Source of the DNA: Priapulus caudatus
Lineage: Eukaryota; Priapulida; Priapulimorpha; Priapulimorphida; Priapulidae
Direction of reading: 5' to 3'
NCBI RefSeq assembly: GCF_000485595.1
Contig: NW_014577364.1
Location: 83,999-130,930 of the forward strand
Length of the DNA: 46,932 bases
Both the position numbers and the translations under genes were made by a program. Positions 13,101 to 41,534 of this stretch are shown here, piece by piece (position 1 is the stretch's first letter; every line of letters begins with the position of its first letter). The notes under the pieces were generated by a model. The model was not told the origin of the DNA, did no database searches, and worked only from the letters and a program-made list of their open reading frames with translations.

Positions 13101-16100
13101 AATAGCAATTTCTCCCCGTTAACAAAGTTACGTTCACCTGCTTTTCTTATCGAAGGCAATCGATTGTTAATTTTTCTTCGATACCAGTAGTAATAGCACC
13201 AGGGGTTAACGGGAACTGGTATCAATGAAAATAGCGTGTATCGTGACTTTGTGGTCTTCTAGTAATTACTTGTCAAGTCATTTCTGCTGTTACTTCGCAT
13301 GAGTGCAAAACGTGATAAACAGTGTTATGCTAGTTGGTACAATACTATTCCTCATAGGGTCTATGTCCCCCAGGGTACTGCCAGAACGTACCCTGGGTAC
13401 GGTCCGGTATACCAGAACGTACCCTGGTAACTATCTGATATGGTTAGGGTTAGGGAGTAGGCGTAGGCGTAGGTGACATATATGTACCTGAGGTAACTAT
13501 CTGATATGGTTAGGGTTAGGGAGTAGGCGTAGGCGACTCCCTAGACTCGTTAGTGGAGTAGGTGAGGTACGGTCCAACATATTAGATAGTACCAGGGTAC
13601 GTTCTGGCAGTACCCTGGGGGACATAGACCCTCTCAGCAATACTATTGAACCTAACATTTTCAATACTATGCTCAAGGGTATTCTGTACAGCTTATTTGT
13701 GTTGCTTCCATTCTTTTATATATGGTTGTTTTGTGACCTTTGTTAATGACTGGGTAATTGGAAATTAAGTGATTGATTTTTTTGATTTATTGAGTTCTGT
13801 TTAACTGTATGAGTAATATGCAGTTGATTCTATCAGCTAAAAAAGCTGAAACGCTGACTTTCAAAAAATAAATACCCTTACATTATATTTTTCCTTTTTC
13901 TATAGCTGATATGTACTTTTTCTTATCCTACCTTAGTCTGATGTCTAAATGTCACAATACTTTGAGCTTTTTGCACCAGTTATTGTTTGCTTTTCATTAG
14001 ATATCTTAGGTCCTACCAGCTCTATTTTCTATATACATTTCTCTTTGTCATGAATGTCCGTTGTGAATTCTCGTGACATCTTTGCAAAATGTTTTCACCT
14101 ATCAATTTGAAATAAGGAGCAAAATCCTTCTACAGTGTCTTTTTCTGACGAGCTGTAATCTTGAACCTGTTTGCTCTACATTAGCACTCATAGCTTTGTT
14201 ACTAGGTGAAGCTGCTAGGGTATACAGCCGACCCACTGTTAATTCATAGGAGTGCAGTAAGTGGCATCTAAAGATTTTCTTGACGCTATGCATTATGCGT
14301 GACGGGGTGGAGGGGGCATGCACATTTAAGTACGACACTAACGTTCAGTTACAGTGTCACTACATGTGCGTGCCGACAAGAATGCTGTAAGAATGTGAGG
14401 ACGGATGCAGCAAAATTCGCCCCGTGACGTTACATGCACTCGAGTCGTCGTACCAGCAAAGTAAAGTTCCTCTATATGAAGGAACTCAGTACAGCAGTGT
14501 CTCATGTTGCTACATGGTGTTACAAAATGGCGCATTTCTTTATGCAGCGTCTGTGGCGGAGCGGTTCGTTCTCACAGCTGCGTGCCTCCATCAGACACAG
14601 CAGCGCAAAACTGCTGCAGAAGCTAAAGGGCATGGGTGCAGGGGGCGCTACTGGTGCTGATGATTTCGGGAGGTAATTCACATTGCACGATAGGAAGACA
14701 GATGAAGAGAGCCGTTTAGGTAGAAGATTGTACTACTAGCTTACCTTATTGCCCCGTAGACGGATTGCACCGCTGATACTCGGAATAATTGGTATCATGT
14801 CTTAGTAATATGGTAAGCTTTAGTCCTATCTTCTTCCTTGATGGGATCTATAAATAGAAGTCTAGTCCACTAGAGGTTTGTATGTTCTATTGCCTTTAGA
14901 GTGATAGAGGTAACACCAGCATGCACATTCCACTCTGAAAGCTTGGAACTCTTTGTCGTCATTTCACTACAGTGGGACAAGTCATTTACTGTCTCGCAGT
15001 AGATGCAATGACTTCAAACTTGACTATGGAATTCCATATTGGTGTCATACCATTTTACATCTGTTCGTTGCATGTATTTCTTGTGAGTTGTCTTTGTGGC
15101 GCAAAAAAACGTAACGCTGGCCTCAAGTACATCAGTCTACTGGACAAAGATCAGAATTAAAACATAATACGTTTTTTTAATAGTTTTTGCGTGTTTTAAT
15201 AGTTTTTGCTAGCCTTTTTAGTCACTATTTTTACAACTTACTTTTGGAGGGAATGCTGAAGCATTCTCGTGCATTGTAGCTAGCCACATGGTTAAGCTTG
15301 ACCTAGCTTTAGTTTAGCTTAACTTACCTACCACACTAACATTGCAAAGGAGTTTTTTGTTGTAGATTTTTGAGATATTCACTGCAAATTAACAGTAAAA
15401 GTTTCAGTGTGCAAAGACTCCATTGAATTTGCAAAACCGATCAAAATGATTATATCAATACTTTTCTTGCAACATTTTATCACCAGGTAAATAATTGGTA
15501 ACTATTCTGATAGTAGAGCACTGCTGCAGAGGATTTTTGATTTTCAGGGATTAAGCACTAGTAAAAGAATTCGTATGAATGTTTGTAACATATAGGTAAA
15601 TAGCTGTAATTTAGAAACGCAGATGAGGTTGGTATTTGTGCTGTGTTTAACTGTAGTACATGTGTGTGGTGTGCAGGTACTCTGCATAGACATGACATGT
15701 TATTAGGAGTGAATAATAATAGATTATCATTCTATTATTATTATTATTATTCACTCCTGATGTTATGTCAGTTTCCTAGCCTCTGTCCATGAACTGTTTG
15801 ACACCATAGGAAAATCTCTTAGATGCAACTCCCTCAACCCTCTGTGTATTCTCACATTCAAGCTTGCACCATTTATACTTGCATGTACACAGATTTCCGT
15901 TAAGCTCCAATCATCTTCCACATTTTTCTGATATTATTAATTATTAGTACTTTAGTAGAGTTTACACTCACGATACGGGTGCATGAAACACGAATAGCAA
16001 CTTTGGTGCCAAAGAAGCACCGATATTTGCTGGTAGGCCACTGGTGTTTATACATAATAACGAACCACCACTGATTGCTGTTTGTGTAGAAACACCTCGA

Positions 16101-41524: not shown

Positions 41525-41534
41525 TACACTCCTG
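41495..41534. mobile_element. Micro-palindrome element (family copy e), 40 bp
   Basis: Arms CAGGAGTGTATCAAAA and TTTTGATACACTCCTG are perfect inverts around CACGTGTA. ATGTGAT lies immediately on both sides (41488-41494 and 41535-41541). It starts on a codon boundary of candidate exon B. Confidence 0.85.

Follow-up and report, generated by a model that had tools for sequence, protein, structure and literature searches.

Short palindromic insertions with shared ends and 7–8-bp target duplications in the genome of Priapulus caudatus, and their possible origin from longer DNA transposons

When a P element leaves its site in Drosophila, the cut lies about 17 bases into the inverted repeat, and the footprint that remains consists of two 8-bp target duplications enclosing short pieces of the two inverted ends. 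Target duplications in the P-element superfamily are 7–8 bp long, and the ends of hAT elements have the form YARNG. The hAT element Hermes makes an 8-bp target duplication of the form nTnnnnAn (described in parts of PMC10368747 and PMC2803484). Miniature inverted-repeat elements (MITEs) combine inverted ends, target duplications, lack of coding sequence and high copy number, and the available part of one MITE-finder paper states no minimum size for them. Introners with inverted ends are short, DNA-transposon-like inserts, some of them with 3–9-bp duplications (PMC9860276, in part). The elements described here share features with each of these systems. A literature search, with preprints and most subscription journals outside its scope, brought up nothing on this palindrome family or on DNA transposons of Priapulus among the titles and opening abstract lines listed.

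The window, by which we mean the whole stretch of 46,932 bp of Priapulus caudatus DNA that was analysed, contains four palindromes (listed without strand), all of which had been recognized in the same places, with their exact 7–8-bp flanking repeats, in an earlier reading made from the letters alone (the sequence-only reading). Copy 1 (15704–15759, 56 bp), with arms of the CAGGAGTGAATAATAATA type and T as its first base, lies between two ATGTTAT repeats read from the sequence (15697–15703 on the left and 15760–15766 on the right). Copy 2 (37858–37923, 66 bp, arms CAAGAGTAGATAATAACA) is flanked by ATATTAG (37851–37857 and 37924–37930), and copy 3 (39708–39745), a perfect palindrome of 38 bp, by the 8-bp repeat ATACGCAT (39700–39707 and 39746–39753). 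Copy 4 (41495–41534, 40 bp, arms CAGGAGTGTATCAAAA) is enclosed by ATGTGAT (41488–41494 and 41535–41541). Copy 1 lies within an intron of a kinesin light chain gene (between exons 14548–14670 and 16387–16443) and copy 2 within an intron of a rootletin-like gene (between exons 37338–37460 and 38146–38352), so that, for all the likeness to introners as short DNA-transposon-like inserts with duplications in some, these two sit inside existing introns. The coding part of the rootletin-like gene ends with exon 39490–39555; copy 3 follows about 150 bp later, and copy 4 is also downstream of that exon. The window occupies C304:83999–130930 of a 385-Mb assembly. Within the exons, the kinesin light chain sequence is 100% or nearly 100% identical to an NCBI Priapulus protein; the joined rootletin-like exons gave a 99% match over 89%, and a single-exon query gave no match.

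The common CARGAGT ends attributed to all four copies are present in three of them, whereas copy 1 starts with TAGGAGT. The interiors had been described as different, but the difference is not complete: about 15 bp of arm, CARGAGTRNATAATA, are common to copies 1–3, and copy 4 is more distant. A palindrome at 5135 also has most of this arm, matching 13 of its 14 fixed positions; for copy 4 the figure is 12 of 14, a level at which 1.9 sites per window are expected by chance. Within each of the four elements the two arms differ at 0–1 of 16 positions, compared with 2–6 between elements.

Hairpins alone are not rare in this DNA, with 69 perfect 10-bp-ended hairpins in the window (overlapping registers included). 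A scan for hairpins with 10-bp arms, at most one mismatch, a total length of 24–80 bp and a 7-bp flanking repeat returned four hits in the real window and none in 200 third-order Markov simulations. Three of the hits are among the four elements (one was missed because its repeat is 8 bp long) and one lies in a repeat field at 35.4 kb. In a listing of hairpins outside low-complexity sequence, which printed six, the four palindromes stand at the top. The rare features are the flanking repeats and the shared ends rather than the hairpins themselves. At 35355–35715 the window also has a field of GGGCGATGGCATCG-like short palindromic repeats with GGACACACCAGGCGAT units. A further inverted repeat, at 2398–3082, has arms of 139 bp that are 93% complementary and spaced by 407 bp.

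The sequence-only reading had proposed a genome-wide scan for an excess over chance, and such an excess is evident in the 385-Mb assembly of P. caudatus, where patterns read backwards served as controls. CARGAGTN{22,52}ACTCYTG has 3227 matches compared with 42 for the reversed pattern (the pattern is self-complementary, and a scan of either strand therefore counts one and the same set of copies), and ATCARGAGTN{0,21}ACTCYTG, which covers forms of 14–35 bp, has 505 and 483 matches against control counts of 0 and 2. Paired elements were seen three times (L145:893, L150:2961 and L154:7601) in 17 sample stretches totalling 170 kb, a sample from which L136–L138 were dropped and in which palindromes of the 5135 type were not counted; extrapolation from it gives, very roughly, 7,000 paired elements in the genome. 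The density in the window, with four elements in 47 kb, is above that of the sample. The element at L154:7601–7732 is 132 bp long, has an interior resembling a microsatellite and is flanked by the exact duplication GTAATAT. A different inverted-repeat element, of 216 bp and starting with TAGGAGTGTTCCCAACTTT, occupies L148:8483–8698; the same end occurs at 25473 in the window, and it looks like another family.

Flanks could be read for 23 copies, the four of the window included; 17 of these have exact duplications, 14 of them 7 bp and three 8 bp long, and the remaining six copies have none. Position 2 is T and position 6 is A in all 14 duplications of 7 bp, with T at position 7 in 13 and A at position 1 in 10 of them, and among the three of 8 bp T is at position 2 in two and A at position 7 in all three. 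The target has the form ATnnnAT, usually 7 and sometimes 8 bp. We also chose by hand 20 copies of 16–30 bp, mostly perfect palindromes, from the ATCARGAGTN{0,21}ACTCYTG matches. An exact 7-bp duplication flanks 14 of them, two have one mismatch and four have no duplication; since L158 and L159 have the same flanks and are taken as one, exact duplications are present in 13 of 19 independent short copies. The shortest copies that an exact duplication surrounds measure 21 bp (L172) and 24 bp (L166, L169, L170 and L171), and the only 16-bp copy among those chosen (L173) has none.

The genome-wide excess, the 7–8-bp duplications and the shared target preference all bear out the reading of these palindromes as insertions: they mark landing places of a DNA transposon. 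That they are chance or structure-driven hairpins with no tie to insertion is hardly credible. The 69 perfect hairpins of the window would suit such an explanation, as would the presence of the two 7-base ends in at least 120 stretches of viral contigs, the listed ones being chance matches of the end pattern only, with a longest matched arm of 13 bases. It is contradicted, however, by the reversed-pattern controls, and also by the exact duplications, the shared target pattern and the existence of longer members.

Longer members were found by searching for pairs of arms facing each other. For the arm ATCAGGAGTAGATAATAGGG the genome gives 529 and 471 matches (reversed control 0 and 0). The first 100 of these rows include 19 facing pairs within 5 kb, of which 13 span 37–90 bp and six are long (609, 763, 775, 775, 811 and 1326 bp), compared with a roughly estimated chance expectation of 0.13 long pairs. 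The same rows contain no outward-facing pairs within 5 kb and four same-strand neighbours; 62 of the 100 have no partner with an identical arm, and these may have one changed arm, lack AT outside the other end or be single arms. Two of the six long pairs were read at their flanks, the 775-bp copies on different contigs (C2:1478814–1479588 and C13:866120–866894), and both have exact 7-bp duplications, ATTTCAT and ATATAAT. The arm ATCAGGAGTCTATCAATA occurs 295 and 278 times (control 0 and 0), and its first 100 rows give 20 facing pairs, 15 of them of 30–44 bp (including the segmental duplicates L158 and L159) and the others of 74, 116, 151, 843 and 2448 bp. This arm has three outward-facing neighbours within 5 kb, which makes its two long pairs (843 and 2448 bp) less sure; the 2448-bp pair (C14:864820–867267) is a candidate coding member by its length only. 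Of the longer autonomous element suggested in the sequence-only reading, members of 609–1326 bp with the same ends were therefore found, but no transposase-coding one.

Because the short forms share both their ends and their target marks with these longer elements, they can be regarded as end-only forms of a cut-and-paste family. Inverted-repeat termini and a duplication of nearly fixed length, both present here, are those of a cut-and-paste DNA transposon family. The arms point in the same direction. In the first 50, in contig order, of the 3227 CARGAGTN{22,52}ACTCYTG matches, left and right arm match at positions 8–9 in 47 copies, compared with a mean of 7.8 and a maximum of 19 when arms are dealt at random (a shuffle that leaves the kinship of copies inside an arm type in the figures), and at position 3 in 48 copies, compared with a random mean of 29.1. 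Agreement extends over positions 8–14 in 35 of the 50 copies, and there are 11 different letter pairs at positions 8–9. The arms vary between copies yet agree inside each, and a copy is therefore as a rule two copies of one end type.

These observations lead us to favour, with a confidence that is evenly balanced, the notion that the short palindromes are end-only remnants of longer members, made by excision and rejoining, over the notion that they are self-mobile units. A DNA transposon with inverted ends of the form CARGAGT(R)nATAATA would insert and duplicate its ATnnnAT target; upon excision, the cuts would fall some 12–20 bp inside the inverted repeats and the two stubs would be rejoined, leaving behind both duplications and one inverted-repeat end per side, with a short variable centre between them. 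Both stubs would come from one element, so that the arms would agree within a copy, while copies from different subfamilies would differ. From the terminal 20–22 bases of the long members one would then be able to predict what stands at the centre of the short forms: a terminus reading ...GGGAATT, for instance, would give GGGAATTCCC. The Drosophila P-element scar appears to be the closest known case. It is alike in having two target duplications (here of 7–8 bp) around short stubs of both ends, and it differs from the present family in that here there are thousands of sites in one genome and many end types. In this inferred course of events, the short forms arise when the ends left by excision are rejoined, and the enzyme responsible would be a P-like transposase.

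Excision with rejoined ends is favoured by uneven arms, by a single arm enclosed by duplications, by a duplication without an element and by lengths near twice the arm. The single arm is at 23077–23100 (no strand assigned), where ATATTAT-GACACTCCTG-ATATTAT consists of a right arm alone (23084–23093) between two 7-bp direct repeats, which is what an uneven excision scar would leave. The element-free duplication adjoins copy 4: at 41557–41569 on the forward strand, ATGTGA-ATGTGAT within the local repeat unit TAGATGTGAT has the appearance of a target duplication with no element in it, possibly a clean scar. A third local unit, TAGATGTGATAA (41582–41593, forward strand), carries a single ATGTGAT and looks like an empty site within the local repeat of copy 4.

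The lengths also bear on a simpler scenario, in which an ordinary transposon inserted and then lost its middle in place through internal deletion, for example by interrupted gap repair. Intermediate lengths do occur (67, 69, 77 and 90 bp for ATCAGGAGTAGATAATAGGG, 74, 116 and 151 bp for ATCAGGAGTCTATCAATA, and 70 and 132 bp) and would suit this scenario. However, 9 of the 13 short ATCAGGAGTAGATAATAGGG pairs measure 37–45 bp and 15 of the 18 short ATCAGGAGTCTATCAATA pairs 30–44 bp, and this clustering near twice the arm counts against random internal deletions because those should spread more evenly. We therefore consider loss of the middle in place improbable.

It is possible, though doubtful, that the 24–66-bp palindromes are themselves ultra-short MITEs, which would be copied and would move by means of a transposase from longer relatives. 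They resemble MITEs in their inverted ends, target duplications, lack of coding sequence and high copy number, the last amounting to thousands of copies; they differ in that many are 24–66 bp long and nearly just two ends, and in that their arms co-vary within a copy. The near identity of the arms within each window element, set against the larger differences between elements, could tentatively be attributed to slippage of replication between the arms of a hairpin, correcting one arm from the other. Such homogenization by template switching has been published (PMC8794818, PMC8604942 and PMC3820800, each in part). Palindromes of 30 bp and of 40 bp turn up in identical form at separate loci, where their duplications differ, as expected of units that move; this recurrence is compatible both with repeated choice of the same joint and with descent. 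On the other hand, a unit of 24–30 bp has little room for internal binding sites (Hermes, which requires asymmetric ends, has subterminal sites inside its first 27 bp, according to part of PMC10368747), and the ATCAGGAGTAGATAATAGGG type is rich in long members that have these ends (6 of its 19 facing pairs). The mobile-element family of the sequence-only reading hence stands as an insertion-linked family, but not as evidence that units of 38–66 bp move by themselves, since they may be leftovers of longer elements. We regard it as rather unlikely that the 24–40-bp palindromes are self-mobile units made of two back-to-back transposase sites, maybe recognized as a folded hairpin, a recognition that would keep the outer 7 bases fixed and leave the arms free to change while pairing.

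Besides the recurrent identical units, several observations speak against excision scars: no CARGAGT end was seen in the 500 bp beside the P-like match L178, discussed below, and no insert-free allele was seen; the T/A symmetry of the target resembles that of Hermes; the ATCAGGAGTCTATCAATA arm has only two long pairs among 20, along with its outward-facing neighbours; and 62 of the ATCAGGAGTAGATAATAGGG rows are without a partner. Empty sites, which the sequence-only reading had suggested looking for, did not appear in the stretches compared. The joined flanks of copy 4 match the genome at its own locus only, and 269 alignments among the fetched stretches contain no element-sized gap with these ends. 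A repeat of about 840 bp lies near three elements (L138), and its two longer copies (L156 and L157) differ by other insertions. This repeat is GC-rich (L138:5059–5896), with about 40 copies, 81–94% identical, among the matches listed.

Related sequence is present at the three further sites that had been noted as partial or related ends, although the site near 23 kb is the one right arm described above rather than two half copies, and the site at 5135–5173 (no strand assigned) is a whole palindrome, an old related one of the GGGAG kind with no clean duplication, inside a larger dispersed repeat. Similar flanks of that repeat occur in the sample stretches L128, L140 and L145, and the flank TACATTATAGAAAC stands beside the GGGAG palindrome in L140 and L145. 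The third site (27866–27882, forward strand) is a left arm alone, CAGGAGTAAGATAATAT, and a multi-copy repeat starts within it or directly after it. This repeat (27883–29745) is at least 1.86 kb long, runs into a gap and has at least 57 genome matches (40 of 1067 candidates scored), its other copies being 71–94% identical. It was considered as an autonomous parent and rejected: none of the 19 other copies reaching this end starts at the first base of the arm (nine start at 27883–27884, four at 27874–27879 and six further in), and we therefore take it as a different repeat. A duplicate contig stretch without the 27866 arm offers no clean empty site. The stretches 27463–27862 and 29771–30159, which flank a gap of 25 N, are the same sequence (91% with gaps, 99% in the first 173 bp). 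The first rootletin-like exon matches both, they diverge just before the single arm at 27866, and they are probably two haplotypes joined in the assembly.

Pfam recognized no transposase in six reading frames of the window that exceed 175 aa; one of them has two weak matches below the cut-offs. The genome contains 64 matches to the P-element/THAP9-type domain PF21787 (89 candidates scored; best E 1.9e-49), with open frames of up to 827 aa, and at least 144 matches to the hAT dimerization domain (150 of 275 candidates scored). The CARGAGT end was sought in the 500 bp beside one of the 64 P-like matches (L178) and none was seen. The duplication length fits the P-element superfamily. Duplications in the present family resemble those of Hermes in having T near the start and, symmetrically, A near the end, but the 8-bp form nTnnnnAn of hAT elements does not describe them, as 14 of the 17 exact duplications are 7 bp long with the pattern nTnnnAn. 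Nor do the ends conform to YARNG, because the window ends read CARGA or TAGGA, with A rather than G as the fifth base. By analogy, then, the duplication length would speak for a P-like transposon, and the T/A symmetry resembles hAT.

Whether scars or self-mobile units, such elements are easily overlooked because they are so short. If they are self-mobile, units of 24–40 bp would be smaller than any transposable element known to us; the lower size limit of transposable elements would drop to about 24–30 bp, and models of end pairing would need revision. If they are scars, one animal genome would document the departure of transposons from thousands of sites, together with the target and the repair joint of each, and the frequency of germ-line excision and the joining of ends would be open to study from sequence alone.
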